Assembly: GCA_016208495.1 (NCBI GenBank)
Contig: JACQXX010000004.1
Location: 1-59,667, forward strand
Source of the DNA: Acidobacteriota bacterium
GTDB lineage: Bacteria > Acidobacteriota > Blastocatellia > Chloracidobacteriales > Chloracidobacteriaceae
Direction: 5' to 3'
Length of the DNA: 59,667 bases
The translations under genes and the position numbers were made by a program. Below the pieces are notes generated by a model, which saw only the letters and a program-made list of their open reading frames with translations, made no database searches and was not told the DNA's origin. This document shows, in pieces, positions 11,652 to 49,631 of the stretch (position 1 is its first letter; the number at the start of each line of letters is the position of its first letter).

Positions 11652-11718
11652 AGTGACCTCCGGTGGTGGGTGAGAAAGGCAAAAAGGACAAAAGGACGAA
11701 AAGGACCAAAACTCGAAA

Positions 11719-11795
11719 ACCCTGAACCCTGAACCCTGAACCCTGAACCCTGAACCCTGAACCCTGAACCCTGAACCCTGAACCCTGAACCCTGA
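11719..11795. repeat. CCCTGAA heptamer tandem array
   Basis: About eleven head-to-tail copies of the 7-mer CCCTGAA lie between the two TPR-CHAT genes, just after the stop of the upstream one. In the transcript (minus strand) it reads TTCAGGG repeats. There is no coding signal. Confidence 0.9.
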
Positions 11796-11801
11796 TTCAG
11801 T

Positions 11802-14800
11802 TCACTTTTTCCCATCCAGATTGGTCCATTCGCCAGATTGAATAAATGAAGCCCAGTAAAACGGGTGCTGCCGCCTGGGGGTTTTCAACAGCTTGAGCTG
11901 TACATTGCGTAGCGCCTGAGAGCGACCTTCACCCGCTTTGAGCCGGGTGTAATAGTCCACCATCAGTTCGCGGGTGGCCTGATCGGACACCGGCCAGAGG
12001 CTCATCATCTGGGCTTCGCTTCCAGCCAGAACCAGGGCGCGTCTCAGGCCATAGACGCCATCACCGTTTTTCACGTCACCCAGGCCGGTATCACAGGCTG
12101 AGAGTACCACCAGTTTCGTCCCCCACAGATTGAGTTGGGCGGCTTCCAGGGCCGTCATTACGCCATCGTTGTTTTCGGTGCCGCCTTGATTGGCACCGGC
12201 GAAAAATAACATTGATCGGAGCAGGGGATTGGCGTGGCGTTCTTTTTCGAAATCAAAAGATGCCTTTCCAGTATTTCGGGCAAACTGATCTAAGGATGTT
12301 GTTTCTGAGGTTTGGGGAGCATCTTCCAGAAAATAGCCGTGGGTGGCAATGTGGACCAGGAGTGGTCGTTTGACCTGTTTCAGATCTTGTTCGGTTGCCT
12401 CAGCCCGCACCTTCAAAACCGCGGTTGGAAAGATGGCCTTGAGTTGTTCGCCTTCAACTCGGGTTCCGGCAAGTCGTGCTAGCCGACCAAGCTGGTGGCC
12501 CAGCATTTGTGGTCCGGTTCCATCCAGATAATCCGGGTCAGTGATCACCAGCGGCGGTTGCTGGCTTTCGTTTTTGACCGCCAGCCGCAGCACGTCACGC
12601 CCGCTGGTCAAATAGGTCAGCGTGTAGTTTTCGACCAGGAACTTTCCCTGTTCATCCATCAGGGCAGCAAAGGGAATCAAATTCAATACACCGTCAGGGG
12701 AAATCAGCAGGTGCCGGGTATTTCCGACCAACGCCCGGACTGGTTTCATCACCAGCCTGTCCAGCGCCTGGGCGGCTGGGGCAACGTCTTTGATCAGGTC
12801 TGTCCTGGGGGTGCTCACTGCCTTGCGAAGGGCTATCACCGCCTGTTCAATCGGGGTGGCTGGACCTAAATCCGCCCACCTGATCTCACCCGCACGGTCC
12901 AATGTGTAGATTGCCATCCGCAGTGTTCCAAATTGAAATGTTTTGGGGGTATAGGATTTGTAAGTGGTAAATTCAATCAGCATGCCATCAGCCGGAAGTT
13001 GTTTCTGAATGTTCTCCAGGGTAATTGGCGTCACCTGAGTTTTAAATTCAGTGCTTTTGGTGCTGATTTCGGCTTCCAGCCTGCCTTTTTGGTTTTCCAA
13101 TTCGTTGACGTAGGCCAGATGTCCTTCGGGTGTTTGTTTGTCAGGACCGCGCAACGTCAGCACCGAAATTTGACCGGCAAGACTGGCATACGTCTCCAGA
13201 AGTTGTTGAATCTCAGGTGTTTGCTGTTGCCGCAGGGTTTCAATAGCCTTCGTCATGGCATCCAGTGCCCGTCCTTTGCGACGCAACAGCACGGTCAAGG
13301 CTGCCTGTCTGGCCTCACGGGATTGGGGCGCCGACTGAAGATGCAGCGCCAGGGTCGCATCGGTGTAACTGCTTGTTTGTTTGAGATAGAGGATTTTCTG
13401 CTGTTCGGAACCTGCGACCAGGTTGCGCTTTAAATCCGATTCGCTGGCATCATTGGCTCGAATCTGAAATTGAATAGCTTGTGGCAGATTGCCTGCGGCG
13501 TGAAACATATTCGCCAAATTGTTGAAGTTGGCCGCGACCAGTGAGTGGTCAGGTCCAAATGATTTTTCATAGATGGCCAGGGCCCGCCGGTAAAGTAATT
13601 CGGCTTTCTGGTAATTCCCCAGGGAGTTGAAGAGATTCGCCAGATTGTTGAGATTGCTGGCCGTCGCTGGATGGTCAGCTCCCAACACTTTCTCCCGGAT
13701 CGTCAGGGCTCGCTGGTAGAGTGGTTCAGCGCGTTGATAGTCTCCTTTGGTCCAATACAAATTCGCCAGATCATTGAGTGTGTCAGCGACTTCCGGATGA
13801 TCAGGGCCCAGCGCTTTTTCACGGATCGCCAGCGCCCGCAGATAGAGTGGTTCCGCCCGTTGATAGTCTTCGCTGGCCCAGTAGAGGTTAGCCAGATTGT
13901 TGAGGCTGCCTGCCGTCTCCGGGTGTTCAGAGCCTAATACTTTCTCCCGAATGGCCAGCGCCCGCTGATGAAGCGGTTCGGCTCGTTGCAGATCGCCTTT
14001 GGTCGTGTAGAGGGTGGCTAAACTATGAAGACTGAACGCTGTATCCGGGTGGTCAGGCCCCAGGACTTTTTCCCGGATCGCCAGCGCCCGCTGCAGGTAG
14101 TGTTCCGTTTGCTGGTAGTTGCCCTGATCCCAGGAGAGTTTGCCCAGGTTGTTGAGGCACGTGGCGACCTTTGGATGGTTAGAGCCCAGTGATTTCTCAT
14201 AGATGGCCAGTGCCCGATGGTACAAAGGTTCGGCTCGCTGATAGTCCCCTTTTTCATTATAGAGAAGCGCTAAATTGGTAAGACTGTTGGCTACATCCAG
14301 GTGGTCAGCCCCCAGTGCTTTCTCCCGGATGGCCAGCCCTTCCTGGTACAGCGGCTCGGCTTTTTTGTAGTCACCTTTTTCCAGGTACAGATTAGCCAAT
14401 CCCGTGAGGCTGGTGGCGACACTTGGGTGGTCAGTGCCGAGTACTTTTTTCTTGATCGTCAGAGCCCGCAGATAGAGTGGTTCGGCTTTTTTGTAGTCCC
14501 CTGTGTTTTTGTAGAGGTTCCCTAAATTGTTGAGGGTGATAGACACATCCAGGTGCTCAGAGCCCAGTGACTTCTCCTGGATCGCCAGCGCCCGCTGGTA
14601 GTGTGAATCAGCTTTTTGAAAGTCACCTGTCGCCTGATAGACCAGGGCCAGATTATGGAGGCTGGTCGCAACATCTGGATGAGCTGGACCAAAACTTTTC
14701 TCCTGGATGGCCAGGGCTCGCTGATACAGGGTTTCAGCTTTCTGAAATTCGGCTTTGGCACGGTAGAAATTAGCCAGCGTGTTGAGACTGGTTGCCAGCA

Positions 14801-15143
14801 GCCTATGGTCGCGGCCAAAGATTTTTTCGCTCTGTTCCACCGCTTGCTGGGCCAGGACGATGCCTTGATCATATTTTCCGGCTCGATACAGTTTTTTTGC
14901 CTCCGCATCGAGTTTCTCAATCTCAGTCTGAGCCCTGTCCTGATCGGTAATCGGAGCAAGTTGTGCTGACATTGAGCCTGAAACTTCCGACTGGTTTTGA
15001 ACTGTTCCTTCTGAAGACTGAGCCCGCAAAGTTGTAAAGTCATCAGCCTGGGAATTGGGAAGGTGAGCGATGAAAAGCAGACCTGCGATGATGATCAGGG
15101 TCAAGCTGGAAGACGGTTGCACCCGAAACAGCAGGCATTTCAT
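11802..15143 (-). CDS. Secreted TPR-CHAT protease-like protein
   Basis: A 1113-residue paralog of the preceding gene. It has a signal peptide (about residues 1-34), no PPC domain, a longer TPR array of about twelve repeats with consensus AEPLYQRALAIREKVLGPDHP, and a C-terminal CHAT domain with His in VHIATHG and Cys in VVLSACDTG. The C-terminal 300 residues are almost identical to the first copy, while the N-terminal parts differ. ATG 15143 is chosen over 15200 because AAAGGA lies nine to ten bases upstream and the signal peptide then starts MKCLLFR. The two genes could be co-transcribed. Confidence 0.87.
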   Translation of the reverse strand: MKCLLFRVQPSSSLTLIIIAGLLFIAHLPNSQADDFTTLRAQSSEGTVQNQSEVSGSMSAQLAPITDQDRAQTEIEKLDAEAKKLYRAGKYDQGIVLAQQAVEQSEKIFGRDHRLLATSLNTLANFYRAKAEFQKAETLYQRALAIQEKSFGPAHPDVATSLHNLALVYQATGDFQKADSHYQRALAIQEKSLGSEHLDVSITLNNLGNLYKNTGDYKKAEPLYLRALTIKKKVLGTDHPSVATSLTGLANLYLEKGDYKKAEPLYQEGLAIREKALGADHLDVANSLTNLALLYNEKGDYQRAEPLYHRALAIYEKSLGSNHPKVATCLNNLGKLSWDQGNYQQTEHYLQRALAIREKVLGPDHPDTAFSLHSLATLYTTKGDLQRAEPLHQRALAIREKVLGSEHPETAGSLNNLANLYWASEDYQRAEPLYLRALAIREKALGPDHPEVADTLNDLANLYWTKGDYQRAEPLYQRALTIREKVLGADHPATASNLNNLANLFNSLGNYQKAELLYRRALAIYEKSFGPDHSLVAANFNNLANMFHAAGNLPQAIQFQIRANDASESDLKRNLVAGSEQQKILYLKQTSSYTDATLALHLQSAPQSREARQAALTVLLRRKGRALDAMTKAIETLRQQQTPEIQQLLETYASLAGQISVLTLRGPDKQTPEGHLAYVNELENQKGRLEAEISTKSTEFKTQVTPITLENIQKQLPADGMLIEFTTYKSYTPKTFQFGTLRMAIYTLDRAGEIRWADLGPATPIEQAVIALRKAVSTPRTDLIKDVAPAAQALDRLVMKPVRALVGNTRHLLISPDGVLNLIPFAALMDEQGKFLVENYTLTYLTSGRDVLRLAVKNESQQPPLVITDPDYLDGTGPQMLGHQLGRLARLAGTRVEGEQLKAIFPTAVLKVRAEATEQDLKQVKRPLLVHIATHGYFLEDAPQTSETTSLDQFARNTGKASFDFEKERHANPLLRSMLFFAGANQGGTENNDGVMTALEAAQLNLWGTKLVVLSACDTGLGDVKNGDGVYGLRRALVLAGSEAQMMSLWPVSDQATRELMVDYYTRLKAGEGRSQALRNVQLKLLKTPRRQHPFYWASFIQSGEWTNLDGKK

Positions 15144-15395
15144 GGGGTGGATTCCTTTCAATTTTAAATCAGGGCTGAAGTTATGCTGGATGAAAAGCAC
15201 CTTGAATTTGACAAATGGCAGGCATTATGGAGTTAGAAATGAAAGAATGACGGCTGATCGAGAGCAACTCTGAATGTCAGGGTTATGGTTGCCAAGTTTA
15301 TCATTCAAATTTTGACTGCGTAACAACAGATTTTGAATTGCTTCGTTGTGGAAAGGTCACTTGATTTTGACCACTCCCGCCCAGCAGAGCAATAA
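15144..15395. other. Upstream region of the TPR-CHAT pair, no gene seen
   Basis: About 250 bases without a convincing gene or repeat. It presumably carries the promoter for the minus-strand TPR-CHAT pair, but no good -35/-10 pair was found on that strand. Confidence 0.4.
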
Positions 15396-15444
15396 AAAGT
15401 AGCCGGTGGGCAGCCTGCTTTGAGGCACACCCACCGGCTACTTT
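15396..15444. repeat. Perfect 15-bp-stem palindrome (module B)
   Basis: Arms AAAGTAGCCGGTGGG (15396-15410) and CCCACCGGCTACTTT (15430-15444) are exact reverse complements around a 19-base loop. The same module occurs in the repeats near 27940 and 56800, so this is a member of a dispersed REP-like family and not a one-off terminator. Confidence 0.8.
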
Positions 15445-15566
15445 CCGGCGACCTCCGGACGAAAACCGACTTTTTCGGCAACGGAGGACGATACAGTTTC
15501 TCGGGGAATGGGAAGCTGTTCAGCGTTCAAGCCTTCGCTTACCTTTGTGTTCAGAAGTCTGAAAAA

Positions 15567-15648
15567 GTTCAGAGTATCGTCTTTAGACGAGAGGGTTCTT
15601 CTTCCGTCCCAGTCGTTACATCTCGCACCTGAAGGTATTACTCTGAAC
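15567..15648. repeat. Small palindromic element C, copy 1
   Basis: An 82-bp unit bounded by GTTCAGAGTA and TACTCTGAAC-type ends, with an inner hairpin TCGTCTTTAGACGA. A second full copy lies at 54731-54803 and a left-end-only copy at 28061-28087. Confidence 0.6.
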
Positions 15649-15735
15649 CGAAATCATTTTCTAAAATGCTCTATCAGCGTGAAATAGTGAATAGCGAAGG
15701 AGTGAAGGAGCAAAGGAGTGAAAATATAGGAGTTA

Positions 15736-16022
15736 GTACAAGTCCCCATAAATAGGGGATGGAAATTCGGTGATTCCGAATTGGCTTTCGCCCGGATGGG
15801 CGCCGGACAATAGCCGGTGGTTTGCCGCTTTGGGCACACCACCGGAGCGTCAGTCCGCAGTGGGTTGCGCCCGGATGGGCGCTGGAAGCTGGTTCGGGTC
15901 CCGGTTTTCGTGGAAGTTTCGGCTTCTGGCTCACGACTCCTGTTCCAGCGCCCATCCGGGCGAAAACCAATTTTTCTTTCATCGAGTGGTCAAATTTCAT
16001 CTCCCTTTTATGGGGACTTGTA
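15736..16022. repeat. Composite palindromic repeat, copy 1
   Basis: The outer inverted repeat is GTACAAGTCCCCATAAA (left) and the reverse of it ending GGGGACTTGTAC (right). Inside are three copies of CGCCCGGATGGGCGC-type palindromes and one AGCCGGTGG...CCACCGG stem. The same modules recur near 21911-22172, 27730-28005 and 56585-56855. There is no gene. The structure looks like a nested non-autonomous element or a REP cluster. Confidence 0.65.
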
Positions 16023-22190: not shown

Positions 22191-22268
22191 AGAGTGAAGA
22201 TTTCGAAATCAGACCACAGCGACAAGTCGCTGAAAATGAAAGCTGTGACAAGTCCCAGCACTCCACAT
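22191..22268. repeat. Repeat element D, copy 1
   Basis: An about 78-bp segment beginning AGAGTGAAGATTTCGAAATC and ending GACAAGTCCCAGCACTCCA, nearly identical to 28196-28274. It has an inner imperfect hairpin, GCGACAAGTCGC. Confidence 0.6.
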
Positions 22269-22429: not shown

Positions 22430-24694
22430 ATGACTAACACCCCCGATTTAAATAGAGGTCTCCAAAGTAGTTCGAGTGAAGACCTTTTTGTTGATATTTT
22501 CCAGGAAGCGCTAGGCTTTGAGCGTGCTCAGCTATTGTTGCCGCAGTATCCCTTTCAAGATATTGACGGAAAAGGTCGCTCTATCGATTTTGTTTTGCTT
22601 TCAAGGCTTGGGAAGTATGCATTTGAGATCGATGGCGAAGCCTGGCATTTTCCGACACAAGGTATTGTTTCACCCAGGGATTATCGTGATTCATTGGTGC
22701 GCCAAAACAGTTTGATTTATCAAGGTTGGAAGGTTTATCGGTGGACTGACGCTCAACTGGCAGGCGAACGAGAACGAGTGAGAGAACAGTTGCGCTTGTT
22801 CCTGGAACGGGAAATATCTGAAGGAACGTTGGATGACTTTTTGCCTGAGCAACAAGGCGCTGAAATATCACTCCATGCTCACCAAAGTAATGCAGTGCAA
22901 TTACTTGACGAACTGAGACGACAAGGGAAAACCATTTCGTTGTTGACCCTTGCAACTGGAACCGGGAAAACCCACATTGCCATTTCAGACGCAAAACGGC
23001 TTGGCTTTCGAACTTTGTATCTTGCTCACCGGACGGATTTGGTCAAACAAACCCAAAATCGTTTCCTGGAACTTTGGCCGGAAGTGACTTCTCAGGTTTT
23101 TCGAAAGAAGTCAGGAAAACCTGACGCTCATGTTGTTTTATCTACGATACAGGCAATGAGTGACTCGCTTGAACTCTTTGATCCAAAAGAGTTTGGCTAT
23201 ATCGTCTTTGATGAAGCCCACCATGTTGCTGCTCCTATCTATCGAAAAGTGCTGGCTTATTTTCGGGCCAGATTCATTTTGGGGCTGACCGCAACTCCCG
23301 AGCGACATGATGGTCAATCCCTTCTCGATTTATTTCAAACCACGGCTCACCGACTTGAATTGGAAGAAGCGATTTCCCGTGGATTATTAGTCCCGATTCG
23401 GTGTGTTCGTGTTCGAACAAATGTAGATTTGACCCATATTCATTTCAATGGAGTGGATTATCGGGCTTCAGACCTCGAAATACATTTGTTCATTCCAGGT
23501 CGGGACCGATTGATTGTTGATACCTACATTGCTCATGTAGCGGGCAAACGGGCTGTGTGTTTTTGTGTCAATGTTGCCCACGCTGAGAATCTGGCTTTGG
23601 AATTTCAACGACAGAAAATCGCTGCGGCCCACGTGTCAGGGCGGACGGATGCCGAACAGCGTCAAGCCACCCTTGAAAAGTACCGACAAGGGGAAATCCA
23701 GGTACTATGTGCCTGTGATATTTTGACGGAAGGTTGGGATTCACCCGAAACCGAAGCTTTATTTATGGCCCGTCCGACGCTCAGCAAAGTTGTGTATGTT
23801 CAGCAACTTGGGCGTGGGACTCGAAAAGCTCCTGGCAAGGAATGTCTCTATGTTTTTGATTTCATAGACAATACCACCCGATATGCACAGGCAATGAGTG
23901 CCCACCGATTACTTCAGAAGGAAAAATACTTCCCTGGTGCTCTGATTGCCGCGCCAGTAGAGCTTCTACAAACCGAAGACCGGCAAATTGCTGCCGGAGA
24001 AAAAACAACTGCTCACCTGGGGCTTCATTTATGGGCTGAGCGCTACGAGCCAATTGATATTTTCCGCTGGCAAGACGAAGTTAAAGACATGCTTCAAGCC
24101 CATGAGTTGGAGCGAGAACTTGGAGTTGGACAACGGACTGTCCGGAACTGGATTGAAGCCAACCGGTTGCAGCCTGATCACACCATTGAAATGGGCAGCC
24201 GGGTCTATCATTATTTTAAAAAGGAGAGAGTTGCACAGATCCGAGCCGATTTCGGGTTGGTCGAAGTTACATCAGAAAATATCAAGCAGCAGTTTTTTGA
24301 ATTTGTCACCGAAATGGATATGAGTTCTTCTTACAAACCAGTCTTGTTACTCGGGTTACTGGAACTTGCCGATGAGCGGGGAAGGGTGAATGTCCCGGCG
24401 CTGGTTCAATTCTTCCGGACGTTTTATCTCAATCGGCAAACATCCGGTCAAAAAGTTGAAGCTGAAGGAAAGCGCATGAATAAAGTAGTGACACTGACAG
24501 ATACTGAGATTGCGTCGGTGATGTTGGAAATGCCGTTTGAGAAATTTGAGCGTCGGAAATATCTCCGCTATTTAAAAGACGTGACTGTGATCAAGTTTCA
24601 AGATGCCTTGTGGAGAGTCCTTACCGTAGAAGACAAGCGCCAACTGAAAGAAATAGCTCAAGCTGCGATCAATTCCTACTATGCCAGAGTCTGA
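22430..24694 (+). CDS. SF2 helicase with N-terminal nuclease-like domain
   Basis: A 754-residue DEAD/DEAH protein of the type III restriction (ResIII) class. Residues about 15-125 look like a PD-(D/E)xK/DUF559-like nuclease (SIDFVLLSRLGKYAFEIDGEAWH, then QGWKVYRW). The helicase core follows: TLATGTGKT (motif I, about 181-189), FDEAHHVAAP (II), LTATPERHDG (III), CACDILTEGWDSPETEA (V) and QQLGRGTRK (VI). A MerR-like helix-turn-helix (LERELGVGQRTVRNWIE) lies at about 560-580, with a further C-terminal domain. GGAGG precedes the ATG. It overlaps the HIT gene by 14 bases. A defence or DNA-repair role is inferred. Confidence 0.85.
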   Translation: MTNTPDLNRGLQSSSSEDLFVDIFQEALGFERAQLLLPQYPFQDIDGKGRSIDFVLLSRLGKYAFEIDGEAWHFPTQGIVSPRDYRDSLVRQNSLIYQGWKVYRWTDAQLAGERERVREQLRLFLEREISEGTLDDFLPEQQGAEISLHAHQSNAVQLLDELRRQGKTISLLTLATGTGKTHIAISDAKRLGFRTLYLAHRTDLVKQTQNRFLELWPEVTSQVFRKKSGKPDAHVVLSTIQAMSDSLELFDPKEFGYIVFDEAHHVAAPIYRKVLAYFRARFILGLTATPERHDGQSLLDLFQTTAHRLELEEAISRGLLVPIRCVRVRTNVDLTHIHFNGVDYRASDLEIHLFIPGRDRLIVDTYIAHVAGKRAVCFCVNVAHAENLALEFQRQKIAAAHVSGRTDAEQRQATLEKYRQGEIQVLCACDILTEGWDSPETEALFMARPTLSKVVYVQQLGRGTRKAPGKECLYVFDFIDNTTRYAQAMSAHRLLQKEKYFPGALIAAPVELLQTEDRQIAAGEKTTAHLGLHLWAERYEPIDIFRWQDEVKDMLQAHELERELGVGQRTVRNWIEANRLQPDHTIEMGSRVYHYFKKERVAQIRADFGLVEVTSENIKQQFFEFVTEMDMSSSYKPVLLLGLLELADERGRVNVPALVQFFRTFYLNRQTSGQKVEAEGKRMNKVVTLTDTEIASVMLEMPFEKFERRKYLRYLKDVTVIKFQDALWRVLTVEDKRQLKEIAQAAINSYYARV

Positions 24695-28136: not shown

Positions 28137-28202
28137 ATTAAAATGGCCTGTGATGAACGACTCCAGCAGATTGAGGCTGGGCGACAGCCATCCAAAGAGT
28201 GA
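28137..28202 (+). pseudogene. 3' remnant of a brnA-like antitoxin gene
   Basis: The frame reads IKMACDERLQQIEAGRQ then PSKE and a TGA stop at 28200-28202. It matches the C-terminus of the intact BrnA at 34585-34845 (IKMACDERLRQIQAGRQ). A TGA stop lies two codons upstream of the preserved part, so only the last 21 codons survive. The remnant is fused to repeat element D. Confidence 0.7.
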
Positions 28203-28274
28203 AGATTTCGAAATCAGACCAGCCAGCGACAAGCCGCTGAAAATGAAAGCTGTGACAAGTCCCAGCACTCCAAA
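28196..28274. repeat. Repeat element D, copy 2
   Basis: Nearly identical to 22191-22268. It begins at the stop codon of the brnA remnant, with AGAGTGAAGATTTCGAAATC, and contains a GCGACAAGCCGC hairpin-like core. Confidence 0.6.
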
Positions 28275-28377: not shown

Positions 28378-29280
28378 ATGGCAACCGACGATCTCCACGG
28401 CGCGGCTGAAGTCCCTCAGTCGGCTGAGCTTTCCACCTCGCTTGATACCATCCGCAAACAACTCAATCAGGAAATCGGGCTCCGCAAACGGGTGACCAAA
28501 CCCCTCGAAGATGCGCTCCGGGCACTCAAAGACCCGCATAAATTTGCGGTGGCCCTCTCGGAAAGCGTTGCGGCACTCGAAAAGCCACCCCAGGATGTCA
28601 ACCTGCCCGAAAATTACTCAGAACTGGTCGCCCAGGTGCGGGTGATTGCCGATGAAAAACTCTCGGAACTGGAATTTACCTTCGCCCGCGATTTGCGCAC
28701 GGCGTTCCAGGAAAAAGGCATCACGCTTGACGGTCCGCCCAATGCACTGGTTGCCGACCTCTTTTTGATCAAGCCCGATATGCGCAAGAAGCGCGTGGAT
28801 ATCACGTTTTCACGCCAGCCGGTCACTTCCAAGACCATCAAGCTCAATGTAGACGCCGTCGTCAGCGCCTATGACCGTGCCAGAAAGGAAATCTTCGAGC
28901 GCAAAACCGACTATCCGCAACTTCTGGCCGATTTGTTTGCCGCGTATGAACGCCTGCTCAAACTCAATGGCGAACAGGTCGGGGCACGCACCGGAATTGT
29001 GGATCTTTATACCGAACTGATTTGGGTTCGTCAGCCAGCCGCATTTCGGAAAACACCATCCAACCTGACCTTTTTGGATTATCCGAAAACGCACTTTATT
29101 TATGACATGCTTCAGTTGCGCCAGCACAACATCCTGAACCACAACGAGTTCCGGCTCAATTTCGGCGTTTCGACCATCGAAGTCGGCAGCGATAGCCGCA
29201 AAGCCATGTTCCTGGCGACCGGTGCCAATGAAGGCGCCTTCATTAAAGATTTGTACTTTACTGTGGAGAAATCGAAGTAA
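28378..29280 (+). CDS. Unknown first gene of the ATPase-helicase operon
   Basis: A 300-residue soluble protein. The N-terminal 110 residues are strongly helical and probably coiled coil (SLDTIRKQLNQEIGLRKR, then ALRALKDPHKFAVALSESV). The middle is mixed alpha/beta, and the C-terminus ends in a beta-rich segment (NHNEFRLNFGVSTIEVG). No nuclease, methylase or signal motif was seen. Its stop overlaps the start of the next gene by one base (TAATG), so it is translationally coupled to the BrxD-like ATPase and probably a structural partner. The start has only a weak SD. Confidence 0.7.
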   Translation: MATDDLHGAAEVPQSAELSTSLDTIRKQLNQEIGLRKRVTKPLEDALRALKDPHKFAVALSESVAALEKPPQDVNLPENYSELVAQVRVIADEKLSELEFTFARDLRTAFQEKGITLDGPPNALVADLFLIKPDMRKKRVDITFSRQPVTSKTIKLNVDAVVSAYDRARKEIFERKTDYPQLLADLFAAYERLLKLNGEQVGARTGIVDLYTELIWVRQPAAFRKTPSNLTFLDYPKTHFIYDMLQLRQHNILNHNEFRLNFGVSTIEVGSDSRKAMFLATGANEGAFIKDLYFTVEKSK

Positions 29281-30563
29281 TGCTCTCACGTGCAGAAGCT
29301 CAGCACATCGTGCGCAAACTCGGCGAATCGGGCATCCCGCCGACTCGCGGACTTGAAGCCTACACGGTCGGTCTCGACTCGATGTTGAAAACCATCGAAG
29401 ACGAATATTTGAAAGGCTACCTGCCCAACGGCGGGTCCAGCTTCAAGCTGGTCGTCGGCGAATACGGCAGTGGCAAATCCCACTTTTTGTTTCGCGTGCG
29501 CGATATCGCCTGGAAAAATGGCTACGTTGTCAGCCGTTCCGAACTCAGCCCGAAGGAATGCCCTTACGACAACCAGCTCAAGGTCTATCAGGCGGTGATC
29601 AACAACCTGATCTTCCACGACCCGGATCCAAACGTCGAAGACACCCACGGGATTGAGTCCTTCCTGGAAAATTACTTTCACAACACGCTGCGCACCATCG
29701 GCATTGAACAAATGCGCAATTCGATGGGAGAACTTGATTTGCGGGTCAAGCTCTGGCTCGATACCGTGTTGCGCTACAAGGTGGAAAGCCCTTCGTTTCG
29801 CCACGCGGTTTATTTTTATTTGCTGGCTGTGGCTGAGGAAAACGAATACAAAAAACGGCTTATCGGTGCCTGGCTGCGCGGGGAAACGGTGGCGCTCAAA
29901 GACTTGCGTCCGTTTAGCATCACCGAGAAAATTGACAAGTCCGTGGCGTTCAAAATGTTGCGCTCACTGGCGCAACTCATTCACGAACTTGGCTTTTCCG
30001 GGCTGGTTCTGCTCTTTGACGAAGGCGACCGCATGGTGAGCATCAGTTCGGCCAAGGCTGAAAAAACAGCCTGCGACAACCTCCGCGAAGTGGTTGACCG
30101 GTGCGCCGGAGAAAGTCTGCCGGGAACGCTCTTTATGTATGCCGTTCCGCCCTATTTTGTGACCAACATTGCACCGCAGTATGAAGCCCTGAGCCAGCGC
30201 ATCAGTTCCAAGGTGAAGTTCTCGCGCAAAAACCCGTTCAGCGTCCAAATCAGCCTTGATCAATTGGATTTTCCAGGCGAGGAATTGTTGACCTTGATCG
30301 GCGAACGGCTGGTCGAAGTCTTTGAACTGGCCTATGACCTCAAGCTCGACCACGAATTGCAGGCCCAAAATATCGCGCAACTGGCCACTTCGTGCGCGGC
30401 GCTCCTTTCAACCAGCCACCGGCGGCATTTTGTGAAGTCGCTGATTGATATGCTGACCGAACAGCGAGCCGATGGGGAATTTCTCTACGAAGCCGACGGC
30501 GTCAATGGCGTGATCCGGCGGGTGACAGAACAACTTGGGCGATCACAAGGCGGAGAATACTGA
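29280..30563 (+). CDS. BrxD-like (DUF2791-type) P-loop ATPase 1
   Basis: A 427-residue ATPase. The N-terminus GIPPTRGLEAYTVGLD is typical of the BREX BrxD family. Walker A is GEYGSGKS (residues 60-67) and Walker B is LVLLFDEGDRM (about 241-251). BrxD occurs with an Lhr-like helicase (BrxHI) in type 2-like BREX. Here it is coupled on both sides: TAATG with the previous gene and TGATG with the next. Assignment to DUF2791 is from remembered family features. Confidence 0.8.
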   Translation: MLSRAEAQHIVRKLGESGIPPTRGLEAYTVGLDSMLKTIEDEYLKGYLPNGGSSFKLVVGEYGSGKSHFLFRVRDIAWKNGYVVSRSELSPKECPYDNQLKVYQAVINNLIFHDPDPNVEDTHGIESFLENYFHNTLRTIGIEQMRNSMGELDLRVKLWLDTVLRYKVESPSFRHAVYFYLLAVAEENEYKKRLIGAWLRGETVALKDLRPFSITEKIDKSVAFKMLRSLAQLIHELGFSGLVLLFDEGDRMVSISSAKAEKTACDNLREVVDRCAGESLPGTLFMYAVPPYFVTNIAPQYEALSQRISSKVKFSRKNPFSVQISLDQLDFPGEELLTLIGERLVEVFELAYDLKLDHELQAQNIAQLATSCAALLSTSHRRHFVKSLIDMLTEQRADGEFLYEADGVNGVIRRVTEQLGRSQGGEY

Positions 30564-31975
30564 TGGTTGGCTCACTCGTAAATCATCCGCTTTTTGGGCG
30601 CGGACGGGTTAAGGAATTGCGCAATGCGGGTCGTGAAGCCGCCGTGCAGTTTGACAGCGGCATTCGAACCGTCGTGCCGGCTTCAATGTTGACCACGCTT
30701 GAAACCTCGACGGCAGTGGCGGTACCTCGTCCGCAGCCAATGGCGGTCAGACCGGAACTGACGCCGGACCAGCGCCAGCAGTTTGCCGCCCGGCGGACGA
30801 TTGAAGCGCTCAGGTATGGCATTGTTCCCCAAAAGCGCATCCGGGAAATGAGCGTGGGCCTCGAACGTCCGCTCAACAGTCTGCACGAAGCCTTTGAGTG
30901 CGTGCAGCGCGAAGGCGGGGATTTACGCGTGGTGGTCGGCGAATATGGCAGCGGGAAAAGCCACTTCTTTGAAATTGCCGCCCAGGACGCGCTTGAACGC
31001 CGGTATCTGGTGGCCATCACCAGTCTGGACATTCAGGAAGTGCCGCCAAATCGCCCGCAGCGGATTTACAATTCACTGATCAAATCGTTGCACTTGCCCG
31101 ATCAGCCTGATGAACGCGGTCTCGTGCCGTTGCTTGAAACCGTTTGTTCGCGTCCGACGGCGATGGCGGCGATGCTTGAAAAATTACGGGGAACAATCTT
31201 CGCCACGGTCATTCAAAATTATGCCCAGTTGCGCAGCAAGGACGGCGAAGAACTCCAACTCCTGCTCGATTGGATCTCCGGCGAGAAAGTCTATATTTCC
31301 GACATTCGTAAAGCCCTGCCAGTTCGGAATCAGGATTTCCCAGCACCAGCGCTTTCAACCATGACGACCACGGCTGACCAGTATTGCTATCTGCTGAGCG
31401 GCTGGGGATGGGTTGCTTCGCAGCTTGGTTATGCCGGGCTGGTACTGCTGATTGATGAATCGGAGCATTACAGCCTCTTGCCGCAACGCGGAAAAGAACG
31501 CGCCGACAACATGTTTAAAGGCTTGATTTACACCTGCACCGCCAATCAGCCAAACAGCCGAATTACTGAAAATGACCTGGAGCACCACCACACCAACCAG
31601 CATTCATTTCGATTGATGGAACACAGCCACCTGTTGACGCTCTTTGCCATGACACCGACGGTCAATGCCTTTGATTACCGGCGCTGGCTCCAACCGGAAC
31701 AAATCATTACGCTCGAAAGTCGCTGGGATGAAGGCACGATTGAAGAACTGATGTCGCGGCTCTATGTACTGCATCGGCAGGCATATGGGTATAACCGAAG
31801 CGACATTTTGCTTGATGTCGCGCATGGCCTGCTTGAATGCCTCGAAAACCGGTTGATCAACCTTCGCCAAACCATCCGATTGACAATGGAAATTTACGAC
31901 CGCTGCTTTGCCTACCCGGATTTCGCGGCGACCCAGGCAGTTGACGAAGTGCGGCGGGCGTTGCTCGGACGGTAA
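30563..31975 (+). CDS. BrxD-like (DUF2791-type) P-loop ATPase 2 with N-terminal SH3-like domain
   Basis: A 470-residue paralog of the preceding gene. Residues 1-45 (VNHPLFGRGRVKELRNAGRE, then AAVQFDSG) resemble the small SH3-like beta domain at the C-termini of UvrD/Rep helicases. The ATPase domain follows, with RRTIEALRYGIVPQKRI, Walker A GEYGSGKS (residues 126-133) and Walker B LVLLIDESEHY (about 292-302). Two different copies in one operon suggest a hetero-oligomeric ATPase. Its start overlaps the previous stop (TGATG). Confidence 0.8.
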   Translation: MVGSLVNHPLFGRGRVKELRNAGREAAVQFDSGIRTVVPASMLTTLETSTAVAVPRPQPMAVRPELTPDQRQQFAARRTIEALRYGIVPQKRIREMSVGLERPLNSLHEAFECVQREGGDLRVVVGEYGSGKSHFFEIAAQDALERRYLVAITSLDIQEVPPNRPQRIYNSLIKSLHLPDQPDERGLVPLLETVCSRPTAMAAMLEKLRGTIFATVIQNYAQLRSKDGEELQLLLDWISGEKVYISDIRKALPVRNQDFPAPALSTMTTTADQYCYLLSGWGWVASQLGYAGLVLLIDESEHYSLLPQRGKERADNMFKGLIYTCTANQPNSRITENDLEHHHTNQHSFRLMEHSHLLTLFAMTPTVNAFDYRRWLQPEQIITLESRWDEGTIEELMSRLYVLHRQAYGYNRSDILLDVAHGLLECLENRLINLRQTIRLTMEIYDRCFAYPDFAATQAVDEVRRALLGR

Positions 31976-31984
31976 CTGTGGAGT

Positions 31985-32002
31985 GCGGTGGCTTGACACC
32001 GC
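31985..32002 (+). other. Short hairpin in the operon gap
   Basis: GCGGTG and CACCGC form a six-base stem around CTTGA in the 37-base gap before the helicase. The surrounding GGAGTGCGG...CCGCTTT context resembles 19329-19353, so it may be a repeat that modulates helicase expression. Confidence 0.35.
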
Positions 32003-32012
32003 TTTGGACTTT

Positions 32013-34106
32013 ATGTACTGGCTCAAGGATCGGTTGCACCACACGTGGGATGCGTTTTTCTCGCGGTTCGGGACGTTTACCGACATCCAGACGCGAGCCA
32101 TTGAGCCTGTATTCCAGGGTCGAAACTGTTTTATCGTCTCGCCCACCGCCAGCGGAAAAACCGAAGCCGTGCTGGCGCCGCTGATCGAACGGCTGTTTCA
32201 CTCTTCTGCTCGAACTTCCCATTCGCTTTCACTCCTTTATATTGTTCCCACCCGTGCCCTGGCCAATGATCTGGAAAAACGCCTGATTGGACCGCTTGAA
32301 CGCCTCTCCTTTCGACTGGCTGTGAAGACCGGAGATACTCATGGCCTGCAACAGGTAAAAAGGCCGGATATGCTGATAACCACGCCGGAATCATTGGATT
32401 CACTGCTGGCCAGCCGTCCACGAAGTCTGGTTCATTTGCAGGCCGTGGTGCTTGATGAACTCCATGCGCTCGACAACACTCCACGCGGAGACCAGCTTCG
32501 ACTCTTGCTCAATCGCTTGCGGCGACTCAAACAATTTGCTTTTGAAAAAGGCGACGCGGCAACCAGAGAAATCCAGTTTTGCGCCATGTCGGCCACGGTT
32601 GAAAACCCCATCCAGGTGGCCGAACGCTATTTTGCTGATTCACTTGTGGTTGCCAGTACTGAACGGCGTGAAATCAAGGCTGAAATTCTTCCGTTTCAAG
32701 GGGCGGATTCGCTAATTGAATTGTTTGCGTCGTTACAATCGCAACGTCGAAAAAAAGTGCTTGTCTTTTGCGAGACCAAAGCCGAATGCGAAGCCTGGGG
32801 ACATGGCTTTCAGCAGGGAACGCCGTTTGGCGACCAGGTGTTTGTCCATCATGGCAGCCTCGACCGTGAAGTGAGGCTGCGGGCGGAAGTTGGATTTTCG
32901 CAAACTGGCGCGGCGCTGTGTTTTGCGACTTCGACGCTTGAACTTGGCATTGATATTGGTGACGTGGATCTGGTCGTGTTGATTGGTCCACCGGAAAATA
33001 GCAGCGCTTTTCTGCAACGCATCGGTCGTGGCAACCGAAGAACCGGCCAAACCAATGTGATTGGGTATTTTCGCACGGAAATCGAAGCGGCTTTGTTTTC
33101 TGTCTTTCTCCGGGTGGCCACAACTGGTCAACTCCAGCCCGGCAGTGAAGAACTCGACAATGGGCCGTACTGGTTTCGGCCATCGGTCGTGGTCCAGCAG
33201 CTTTGTTCCTATGTCAAACAGACGCCATTTGGCGAATTTGACCCGGAACATTCCTTTTCCCTGGTGACTCAACCTCACGGGAACCCATTGATTTCAAAAA
33301 CTCAGTTTGACTTGATCATCAATCATCTGTTGGAAAACAAAATATTTGTCCCTGGAACTGACCGACTGTTGAAGCCAGGGCCAGAGTGGGAATTGCTCCA
33401 CGAACAGCGGGCGATTTACAGCAATCTCACCCTGAAGTTACGCGAACCAGTCGAAGTTTTTAACCAGATAACCGGTCGCCGGATGGGGGAAATTGATTTT
33501 TGGGTGCCGATTGGCGAGGTGTTTTTGCTTGGCGGGCACACGGTTCGGGCGATCAGGTTTGAAAGAAAGCGGCTGTTTGCTGAACCGACCACTGACGAAG
33601 CTGGCTGGCGCGCTGGGGCGTTTGGTTCTGGAAGCCGTCGCATGCCTCCAGCACTGGCGGCGGCTGTCGCTCAGGAACTTGGCTTGCCGCAACCGGCTCA
33701 TATATCAGATCTTCCGGGAGTGACGGTCGAACCAGACACAAATCCGGAAGTTGATGATGAAATCTTGCCGCCTTCAGAAACCTGGGTATTTCATCAGGCC
33801 GGGGAAATGTACGGCGTGGTTTTAAGCTGGATGCTCAATGAACATTTTGGCGTGGATGTGATCGAATGCACGGATTTGCATCTCAAAATCAGTGGCTATG
33901 TGCCGACTGAACCGCTGGCCTTTACTCCGGCGCAAGTCAGGACCTGTTTGACACGCCACCGAAAGCATTTTCAGCGGCGCCTGGACGTTGGCTGGTTTCA
34001 TCGGTTGTTGCCGGTATCCGTCCAAACTGAAGCTCTGGTTCAAGCTTTTGATCCAGAACGGTTTACGCGGTTGTTTTCAGGAAGAAGAATCAGCGGCGCG
34101 GGCTAG
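32013..34106 (+). CDS. Lhr-like DExH helicase (BrxHI-like)
   Basis: A 697-residue SF2 helicase of the COG1201/Lhr kind. Motifs: I SPTASGKT (about 43-50), Ia IVPTRALAND, Ib TTPESLDSLL, II VVLDELHALD (about 145-154), III SAT, IV KVLVFCETK, V ATSTLELGIDIGDVD and VI QRIGRGNRR (about 334-342). The C-terminus is a shorter extension than in full-length Lhr. The frame is open from 31908, but ATG 32013 is chosen because the upstream residues overlap the ATPase gene and MYWLKDRLHHTWDAFF looks like a true start. In BREX type 2 loci BrxHI accompanies BrxD. The stop TAG is fused to a heptamer array. Confidence 0.85.
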   Translation: MYWLKDRLHHTWDAFFSRFGTFTDIQTRAIEPVFQGRNCFIVSPTASGKTEAVLAPLIERLFHSSARTSHSLSLLYIVPTRALANDLEKRLIGPLERLSFRLAVKTGDTHGLQQVKRPDMLITTPESLDSLLASRPRSLVHLQAVVLDELHALDNTPRGDQLRLLLNRLRRLKQFAFEKGDAATREIQFCAMSATVENPIQVAERYFADSLVVASTERREIKAEILPFQGADSLIELFASLQSQRRKKVLVFCETKAECEAWGHGFQQGTPFGDQVFVHHGSLDREVRLRAEVGFSQTGAALCFATSTLELGIDIGDVDLVVLIGPPENSSAFLQRIGRGNRRTGQTNVIGYFRTEIEAALFSVFLRVATTGQLQPGSEELDNGPYWFRPSVVVQQLCSYVKQTPFGEFDPEHSFSLVTQPHGNPLISKTQFDLIINHLLENKIFVPGTDRLLKPGPEWELLHEQRAIYSNLTLKLREPVEVFNQITGRRMGEIDFWVPIGEVFLLGGHTVRAIRFERKRLFAEPTTDEAGWRAGAFGSGSRRMPPALAAAVAQELGLPQPAHISDLPGVTVEPDTNPEVDDEILPPSETWVFHQAGEMYGVVLSWMLNEHFGVDVIECTDLHLKISGYVPTEPLAFTPAQVRTCLTRHRKHFQRRLDVGWFHRLLPVSVQTEALVQAFDPERFTRLFSGRRISGAG

Positions 34107-34172
34107 GGTTCGGGGTTCGGGGTTCGGGGTTCGGGGTTCGGGGTTCGGGGTTCGGGGTTCGGGGTTCGGGGT
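34104..34172. repeat. GGGTTCG heptamer array starting at a stop codon
   Basis: About nine copies of GGGGTTC/GGGTTCG begin with the TAG stop of the helicase (TAGGGTTCGGGG) and run into GGGTTTTCGAAA at 34169-34180. There is no coding signal. Confidence 0.9.
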
Positions 34173-34215
34173 TTTCGAAAAAGAAATGCCAGCCGGAGGC
34201 TCGATTGAGGAGGCT
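34171..34215. repeat. 45-bp direct repeat, left copy
   Basis: Starts GTTTTCGAAAAAGAAATGCC and ends GATTGAGGAGGCT. An exact 45-bp copy lies at 34854-34898, so the brnTA segment is flanked by direct repeats. Confidence 0.85.
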
Positions 34216-34328: not shown

Positions 34329-34607
34329 ATGCGAATTAAATGGGATGAGCCAAAACGTCAACTTGTTCTGGCAGAACGTGGAGTGGATTTTGCATATCTG
34401 CAGGATCTGGTGAGCCTGCCCTACATTGAAGATCAAAAGTCTGATGACCCCGAGCAATACCGAATCATTGGATTTGCAAACGGAATGATGGCCACGTTTA
34501 TTGTTGAATATCGCTTTGATGAATTGGGAGAAATTATGTGGATTGTCACTGCCTGGCAATCAACCAAATCAGAACGGAGAATGTATGACCAGGAAACCCA
34601 TTACTGA
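34329..34607 (+). CDS. brnT: BrnT-like toxin
   Basis: A 92-residue protein of the BrnT/DUF497 family, expected to be a ribonuclease toxin held by BrnA. Family marks are MRIKWDEPKRQLVLAERGVDF, QYRIIGFANGMM and the C-terminal RRMYDQE. The 3' end overlaps the antitoxin start by 23 bases in another frame. It has a good promoter upstream but no obvious SD. Confidence 0.85.
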   Translation: MRIKWDEPKRQLVLAERGVDFAYLQDLVSLPYIEDQKSDDPEQYRIIGFANGMMATFIVEYRFDELGEIMWIVTAWQSTKSERRMYDQETHY

Positions 34608-34845
34608 CATTGAAGAAATCGCACGGCGAGCCCAAAGTGGGGAAGATATCTCCGAACACTTCACCGGGAAATTTGTTGCCAAACAACGGGTTAACGTAGA
34701 TTTTCCTTTAGCCCTGCTCCGGGCAATTGACGCTGAATGTCTGCTCGTTGGCATCCCACGCCAGGCCTGGATCAAAATGGCCTGTGATGAACGACTGCGC
34801 CAGATTCAGGCGGGACGACAGTTGCCTCCGAAGGAATCGAATTAG
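34585..34845 (+). CDS. brnA: BrnA-like antitoxin
   Basis: An 86-residue antitoxin with a C-terminal ribbon-helix-helix-type segment (VNVDFPLALLRAIDAECLL) and a basic tail, IKMACDERLRQIQAGRQ. The ATG at 34585 lies inside brnT. Its last 21 codons are duplicated as a remnant at 28137-28202. The TAG stop is followed at once by GGTTTCGGGTTTTCG, as at other genes here. Confidence 0.85.
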   Translation: MTRKPITDIEEIARRAQSGEDISEHFTGKFVAKQRVNVDFPLALLRAIDAECLLVGIPRQAWIKMACDERLRQIQAGRQLPPKESN

Positions 34846-36797: not shown

Positions 36798-36837
36798 AAA
36801 TTACACAGAATGAAGAATTGAGGATGAAGAAACCATT

Positions 36838-37140
36838 TAGTGGTTAGTGGTTAGTGGTTAGTGGTTAGTGGTTAGTGGTTAGTGGTTAGTGGTTAGTGGT
36901 TAGTGGTTAGTGGTTCTTCGAAAGTATTGATGTCTAACCACTAATCACTACCCACTAACCACTCTTTGGTGGTTCTTCGAAAGTATTGATGTCTAACCAC
37001 TAATCACTACCCACTAACCACTCTTTGGTGGTTCTTCGAAAGTATTGATGTCTAACCACTAACCACTAACCACTAACCACTCTTTGGTGGTTCTTCGAAA
37101 GTATTGATGTCTAACCACTAACCACTAACCACTAACCACT
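36838..37140. repeat. GTTAGTG heptamer array plus 59-bp tandem repeats
   Basis: About eleven GTTAGTG units (36838-36912) are followed by four tandem copies of a 59-bp unit starting TGGTTCTTCGAAAGTATTGA (36911-36969, 36970-37028, 37029-37087 and a partial 37088-37140). The period is exact. Copies 1-2 contain CTAATCACTACCCACTAACC, while copies 3-4 contain pure CTAACCA heptamers, so the heptamers are embedded in a larger repeat. Confidence 0.9.
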
Positions 37141-49327: not shown

Positions 49328-49631
49328 ACACGAAACCCTCTCCTGATGGATATTTCTAATTTGGTTGACCTATGGATCTAAGGAGGAGGAAACAAGGAGT
49401 GTAGAATTCCTATGTTACAAGAATCTAACCCTCCAAACCAAGTTGCCGGACCCGATGCGGATGACAATGTGACAAAATGACAGGGGGACAGCGAGGCAAC
49501 TGTGGAATTTTGGATTCTTGAGCTAAATCTCCTTTGAAATCACAAATTTGAATTGACAACTCATAAACTGATTGAAAAAACTGGATTTACTGACTACTGA
49601 CTACTGACTACTGACTACTGACTACTGACTT
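49328..49631. repeat. Divergent intergenic region with TGACTAC heptamers
   Basis: About 300 bases with no gene. A TGACTAC heptamer array (49592-49630) ends exactly at the ATG of the next gene, leaving no Shine-Dalgarno sequence. Confidence 0.8.

Follow-up and report, generated by a model that had tools for sequence, protein, structure and literature searches.

The closest described relatives of the system reported here are the ATPase-helicase pairs of type 2 bacteriophage exclusion (BREX) and of Shango. In the passages of PMC12839542 that deal with it, BrxD is an AAA+ ATPase of the ORC-Cdc6 type (ORC, origin recognition complex) without further DNA-binding domains, which may load or activate the helicase BrxHI, and the same passages call the role of the BrxD-BrxHI pair uncharacterised. 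Shango (SngABC) is presented in the relevant part of PMC10250203 as an anti-phage system of P. aeruginosa. We analysed a stretch of 59,667 nucleotides (hereafter the window), which is one entire contig (JACQXX010000004.1) of the 8.4 Mb, 99.16% complete genome of an Acidobacteriota bacterium (GCA_016208495.1). At positions 28378 to 34106 of its forward strand lies an operon of four genes, A to D, with two ATPases and a helicase of this kind. The four genes are a real, recurrent system, present in several bacterial phyla and in archaea. No description of such a four-gene system was found in the open-licence PMC literature (subscription papers and preprints lie mostly outside that scope), and no priority is claimed. 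Measured against the sources searched, the first component, the duplicated ATPase with its Tudor-like domain and the distribution are new; the ATPases and helicase of the core belong to a known kind.

The four genes compared with BREX and Shango

Gene A (28378-29280, forward strand like the other three) encodes 300 aa. It overlaps by exactly one base, stop on start, with gene B (29280-30563, 427 aa; TAATG at 29278), which overlaps in the same way with gene C (30563-31975, 470 aa; TGATG at 30561). Gene D (32013-34106) starts with an ATG 37 bases past the stop of gene C, from which it encodes 697 aa; an alternative TTG start is open at 31908. The four genes, the two overlaps and the 37-base gap are as described in the initial annotation, which a model had made from the letters alone. 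A scan for promoters and terminators gave signals at or below chance.

Genes B and C both match the Pfam family BrxC_BrxD (PF10923; E-values of 7.3e-50 and 1.1e-32, or 170.5 and 114 bits against a gathering cut-off of 22.2), in agreement with the duplicated BrxD-like ATPase that had been annotated. Among the PADLOC profiles, BrxD (4e-37 for B) scores higher than SngB, which matches B at 1.4e-31 and C at 2.7e-21. The Walker A motif reads GEYGSGKS in both proteins (29457-29480 in B, 30938-30961 in C). Its residues G60, G63, G65 and K66 in B are invariant in seven aligned rows, and, across the loci described below, 77 of 80 first ATPases keep the motif, as do 78 of 80 second ones.

Gene D, with its DEAD and Helicase_C domains, is the Lhr-like superfamily 2 helicase that had been announced. 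It matches the PADLOC profile BrxHI at 1e-76 over residues 56-711 (the library has no curated cut-off) and, with a lower score, SngC at 3.2e-60. Helicase motifs II and VI are recognised in 59 of 62 D proteins, and motif I, with a strict pattern, in 41. Among solved structures, D is most closely related to 5v9x and 7lhl, both labelled ATP-dependent DNA helicase and taken here as Lhr. D nevertheless differs from Lhr helicases in forming a subfamily of about 700 aa with an operon of its own, and in reaching the cut-off of none of the 25 NCBIfam models listed. No nuclease domain was matched by Pfam in A to D, the ResIII match of D being its helicase core. A VxDxxTG-like stretch, seen by eye in some D proteins, was considered as a helicase interaction motif of the kind defined in the part of PMC8318588 that concerns it; the key Glu is missing, and the candidate was not adopted.

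The locus had initially been read as a reduced BREX without methylase. Under such a scenario, A to D would be what is left of a type 2 system after loss of PglX, PglZ and PglW, and the likeness is there: a BrxC/BrxD-type ATPase linked to an Lhr-like helicase, with BrxD-like and BrxHI-like profiles in common. However, B and C reach only 128.3 and 75.8 bits with NF033438, the NCBIfam equivalog for BrxD, whose cut-off is 350. No PglX, PglZ or PglW family is among the matches listed for ten scanned proteins of the window (not every window gene), as had been noted; PglZ (PF08665) also has no match in the whole source genome, PglX and PglW not having been searched genome-wide. PglZ is absent from 33 of 59 carrier genomes, the source included, these being the genomes of 50 of the 80 loci presented below and nine others. 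Finally, the system has two ATPases, a Tudor-like domain on the second and a gene A of its own, and this gene and the Tudor-bearing ATPase are conserved across phyla. A decayed remnant would hardly have retained one and the same set of four genes in both bacteria and archaea. A decayed BREX is most improbable, and we rejected it for the lack of PglZ and the missed BrxD cut-off.

A Shango variant, in which A would replace the TerB protein SngA, has in its favour the same kind of ATPase and helicase, as the SngB and SngC matches indicate. Yet SngA (PDLC03958) has no match in the source genome and is absent from 54 of the 59 carriers (matches in 5), TerB families do not appear among the Pfam matches listed for 72 A proteins (25 of 30 families), gene A is of another family, and the operon holds two ATPases instead of one. 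We consider this variant very unlikely, and rejected Shango as an identification on the absence of SngA from the genome.

Recurrence and co-occurrence of the four genes

Relatives were collected by scanning a genome collection with an alignment of B, and the best 80 of at least 109 were kept as loci. They come from Acidobacteria, Chloroflexi, Planctomycetes, WOR-3, delta/Myxococcota, several candidate phyla and archaea. Counts were made on 89 loci, that is 91 minus L058 and L046, which are copies of L016 and L018 (the barrel count given below, over 83 second ATPases, kept both). In loci found through B, one ATPase is present by construction, which is not the case for A, the second ATPase or D. 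Of the 89, 82 have gene A and 84 have two ATPases; a D downstream, inside the stretch that was fetched, is seen in 68, and the full set of four genes in 63. For 13 of the 26 loci that are incomplete, a contig end lies within 100 bases on one side. The gene order is therefore not peculiar to this genome, contrary to what would have spoken against the initial annotation.

In the window's phylum, a single-sequence search found A in 11 of 297 genomes, including the source. Eight of the ten others show D together with all or part of A-B-C in order, L014 among them with a truncated A and a fragment of B; at L020 and L021, A stands alone at that place. In a Chloroflexi phylum (201 genomes), a profile of A detected the gene in 10, among them two found before, and all eight new loci have two BrxC/D-type matches beside A, even at A scores of 31-43 bits, the first ATPase reaching just 23-28 bits in three of them. 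Gene A was also found in 39 of 120 WOR-3-phylum genomes, in 17 of 149 genomes of the order of a Methanosarcina, and in 2 of 10 of the window's family. One genome of that family, G051, has no A, no B and no D-type helicase (best score 222.8 bits). Its corresponding site is half informative: the FtcD-HU-HIT side is syntenic, and on the other side a 1,061-aa open reading frame (ORF) is followed by the contig end.

Co-occurrence is tight. Among the 120 WOR-3-phylum genomes, 39 have A, 38 have B and 38 a full-length D (more than 500 bits). A and B are found together in 38, A only in 1, B only in none and neither in 81; for A and D the figures are 35 both, 4 A only, 3 D only and 78 neither, meaning agreement in 113. 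Fisher values for these tables are tiny, shared ancestry being ignored. Likewise, the pairwise divergences of the four proteins correlate with r of 0.82-0.94 over 51 loci, shared ancestry not being controlled.

The genes go together even when they are apart. In nine genomes the A-B-C or B-C locus showed no D nearby (two of the fetched stretches end within 1.6 kb), and D was found elsewhere in eight of them (G310, G315, G316, G323, G329, G812, G732 and G586, not G591). In G011, A, B-C and D are on three contigs, each well inside its contig. A, B and D are all present in 34 WOR-3-phylum genomes. The three genes share one contig in 23 of these and do not in 11, four of which have them over three contigs; contig breaks contribute to the figure.

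Inheritance looks mainly vertical. The nearest named relatives of the window's B are from Acidobacteria and Pyrinomonadaceae metagenome-assembled genomes. The B tree requires 21 changes of phylum label, against a minimum of 15 and a mean of 47 after shuffling, so that some horizontal transfer is likely. The Acidobacteria rows (one Aminicenantes row included) account for 5 changes, at least 3 of them on well-supported branches. Some branches of the tree are long (L092, L019), and binning errors are likely, L069 and L075 being nearly identical.

Some loci depart from the standard content. In two of the most divergent of the Chloroflexi phylum, L129 and L131, an A-like gene, a poorly scoring first ATPase and a second ATPase are accompanied by a SNF2 helicase (PF00176, 5.4e-44 and 7.4e-46) that replaces the Lhr-like one; the first ATPase of L129 has no evident Walker A by eye. 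L079 and L090 carry three BrxC/D-type ATPases in tandem, L079 having a second A-like gene as well. Next to the complete A-B-C-D locus L126 lies a DUF1156 gene (12952-15903) that weakly matches a DNA methylase.

Gene A and the barrel of the second ATPase

The novelty of the first component held up: gene A has no match up to an E-value of 0.1 in Pfam, PADLOC or NCBIfam, apart from a noise-level one to Mis12 (0.039). When 72 A proteins were scanned, none of the families listed matched more than one member (Pfam) or two (PADLOC), on which ground TerB, a nuclease or another named family were rejected as identities of A. An AlphaFold2 model built from the 72 sequences (predicted local distance difference test, pLDDT, 94.3) has, by DSSP, a pair of long helices separated by a short one, followed by a small sheet and a C-terminal winged helix. 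The helices form a predicted coiled-coil-like hairpin (residues 14-112, 28417-28713), a region whose sequence matches in the PDB are mostly coiled coils and helical bundles. The predicted winged-helix domain (residues 177-298, 28906-29271) is in the C-terminal half, which holds the most conserved positions of A, G286 being kept in 72 of 72. The whole model gave nothing in Foldseek at an E-value of 0.001 or below, among PDB or viral models. Condensin, MukF and Wadjet rows among the structural matches raised the idea of a kleisin-like protein; they were not above noise and the idea was not adopted.

The C-terminal half was also modelled alone (pLDDT 95.1). Chain A of ORC complexes then takes ranks 1 to 5 both in Foldseek (E-values of 0.13 to 0.41) and in VIA-align (Z of 7.4 to 6.5 over 80-90 residues, root-mean-square deviation 2.9-4.0); this chain is presumably Orc1. 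The winged helix of A may thus be nearest in shape to those of ORC proteins, albeit with a weak similarity below significance, which we treat as a lead rather than a finding. A winged helix of ORC type would here sit in a separate protein, unlike the situation in ORC/Cdc6.

Protein C begins with a predicted Tudor-like barrel of about 50 residues (residues 1 to 50 approximately, 30563-30712), and this extra domain is recognised by pattern in 67 of the 83 second ATPases. A profile of 47 barrels was compared with the PDB: its eight best matches are chains of UvrD/PcrA-type helicases, two of them labelled only DNA helicase, with a best E-value of 3.8e-5. The Pfam model PcrA_UvrD_tudor (PF21196) matches 18 of the 47 at E-values of 0.5 or less, at best 5.1e-4, and does not match the window's own copy; CarD_TRCF_RID matches 6 of the 47. 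The PDB matches, together with the shared motif VxHPxFGxGxV, establish at the level of sequence that the barrel family is related to Tudor domains, and we conclude that the second ATPase usually carries a predicted domain of the PcrA/UvrD type. Most first ATPases should lack one, since they have about 60 to 70 residues ahead of Walker A, which is too few.

In PcrA, according to the sections of PMC5397179 and PMC8318588 on this domain, the Tudor domain binds RNA polymerase, and the first of these names residues H681, W684 and K712. The position of H681 is H in 63 of 65 barrels, and that of W684 is aromatic (F, Y or W) in 49. The barrel of C differs from its PcrA/UvrD counterpart in being N-terminal on an AAA+ ATPase, instead of C-terminal on a superfamily 1 helicase, and in keeping the K712 position only in part.

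Neighbourhood and possible roles of the system

To describe the surroundings of the loci, 128 of the 140 nearest flanking ORFs were scanned; ORFs were called mechanically and some are spurious. At E-values of 1e-20 or less, the flanks gave 19 PADLOC families, one protein each, in the 128 proteins, and the controls 40 families (25 listed, with at most two proteins each) in 120 proteins, mostly generic ones such as kinases and AAA activators. The 25 most frequent of 155 Pfam families in the flanks are mainly of housekeeping types, and within some groups of loci (WOR-3, archaeal and proteobacterial) the members have flanks in common. Repair glycosylases of the HhH-GPD type occur close to L019, L031 and L217, which is anecdotal. 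Where the genes are dispersed, most identified neighbours in the three genomes whose surroundings were read are housekeeping genes. In G582, of the WOR-3 phylum, a lone A is found among hpf-, dtd-, dnaB- and radA-type genes (radA is our own label), and the B-C pair is beside ispG-type and EPSP-synthase-family genes.

Single-sequence tblastn with A detected no homologue among 72,556 plasmid records and 50,697 phage records, where such phyla are probably rare, and no relative of B was seen in viral contigs. B has matches in 644 plasmid records, all below 60% identity and at most 26.1% among the 12 listed.

The window's own neighbourhood has some features of its own. A 48-base stretch, 87.5% identical, is found on both sides of the operon (28140-28187 and 34773-34820) and makes up the 3′ terminus of a BrnA-like gene. 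The BrnA antitoxin model NF047399 is matched by the downstream ORF (34501-34845) at 2.9e-9, with 37 bits against a cut-off of 60, and a BrnT-like frame, visible by eye only, is directly upstream. A 43-base repeat is dispersed at 22219-22261 and 28226-28268, and also occurs at a contig end in G051. Perfect 7-base tandem repeats of differing sequence occur in many intergenic gaps (e.g. 11718-11795, 34106-34173, 36837-36915 and 49588-49630). Finally, a 754-aa protein encoded 3.7 kb upstream of the operon (22430-24694) combines a weak MTES_1575-type nuclease match, a superfamily 2 helicase and a MerR-like helix-turn-helix; its type IV restriction-like PADLOC matches lie over the helicase, and it is possibly a stand-alone restriction factor.

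Part of this context is what would be expected of an innate anti-phage or anti-plasmid system, mechanistically related to Shango and BrxD-BrxHI, in which A would sense or mark foreign DNA, the ATPase pair would load D, and D would disrupt the DNA. B, C and D match the SngB/SngC and BrxD/BrxHI profiles, and Shango is reported as anti-phage in the part of PMC10250203 cited above. The presence of A is patchy in the window's phylum, the Chloroflexi phylum and the window's family, the tree makes some transfer likely, and the helicase with a weak nuclease match lies upstream in the window itself. On the other side, there is no clear excess of defence families in the flanks, in a crude comparison with one small control whose matches are largely generic and differ in quality; frequent flank families are mainly housekeeping, with flanks shared within some locus groups; A is common in some groups (the WOR-3 phylum and the Methanosarcina order) and missing from the plasmid and phage records searched; A, B and D are off one contig in some WOR-3-phylum genomes, partly through contig breaks; and none of the four proteins has a matched nuclease domain. 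Such a defence role is a possible reading, and the anti-phage or plasmid-exclusion part of the initial annotation stays unproven, while its recurrent four-gene system with duplicated ATPases and a new first component was borne out and its reduced BREX was not.

The reading that we tentatively prefer is that A to D form one chromosomal DNA-handling machine, a split ORC-like loader that places D, with a likely function in accessory genome maintenance or surveillance. B and C, which are distinct ATPases of ORC/Cdc6 type according to the literature and have no recognised winged helix, would form an AAA+ pair, to which A would supply in trans the winged helix that is present in cis in ORC proteins. 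The resulting A-B-C assembly would place the Lhr-like helicase on DNA, and the Tudor domain of C would tether it to a partner, most likely RNA polymerase, as in PcrA/UvrD. The machine would then act in maintenance or surveillance at transcribed or stalled DNA. Complex formation, loading, docking and biological role are all inferred here, and the model extends the suggestion, made in the passages of PMC12839542 quoted at the outset, that BrxD may load or activate BrxHI.

Several observations weigh against this loader model. B has no sequence match in the PDB at an E-value of 0.1, and C has few, to a 'phosphate-loop protein' (0.0065), to DnaA (0.008) and otherwise weaker, so that the ORC kinship of both is taken from the literature. 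The fold match of A to ORC has a best Foldseek E-value of 0.13, and its maximal VIA-align Z of 7.4 falls inside the noise or non-specific band of the tool. The barrel went unrecognised in 16 of the 83 second ATPases (L077 has it by eye, L015 was masked, and some starts are doubtful), and a basic residue (R or K) occupies the K712 position in only 26 of 65 barrels; docking on RNA polymerase therefore cannot be assumed for all members. Two further points fit the defence reading set out above. Single flanking genes match reverse transcriptase (RT), pAgo, Cas1, AriA, AbiLi, HEC-01A and candidate PDC models. Some operons have genes inserted between C and D, namely PIN (L022 and L024), MazE-like (L024), GNAT (L023), Uma2 (L028), a DNA methylase (L036) and AAA_15/21 (L051), in ten cargo genes tested, three of them without match; the toxin-antitoxin or restriction-type insertions among them fit conflict biology. 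Between maintenance or surveillance and defence, we place the former slightly ahead, both being live.

A broader proposal, which we hold to be rather unlikely, is that bacteria and archaea share a split ORC-like loader, docked on RNA polymerase through its Tudor domain, which loads an Lhr-family helicase (SNF2 in the divergent branch) at transcription complexes; this would be an undescribed transcription-linked pathway of genome maintenance, and the ATPase-helicase pairs of BREX and Shango would have arisen from it or beside it. More generally, a widespread relative of BrxD-BrxHI with two ATPases, a putative winged-helix partner and a dock of the type known for RNA polymerase would give a concrete split-loader model. 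It provides context for genes that now match only the generic BrxC/BrxD family, or none, and raises the question of whether such ATPase-helicase pairs may have begun in genome maintenance rather than in defence.

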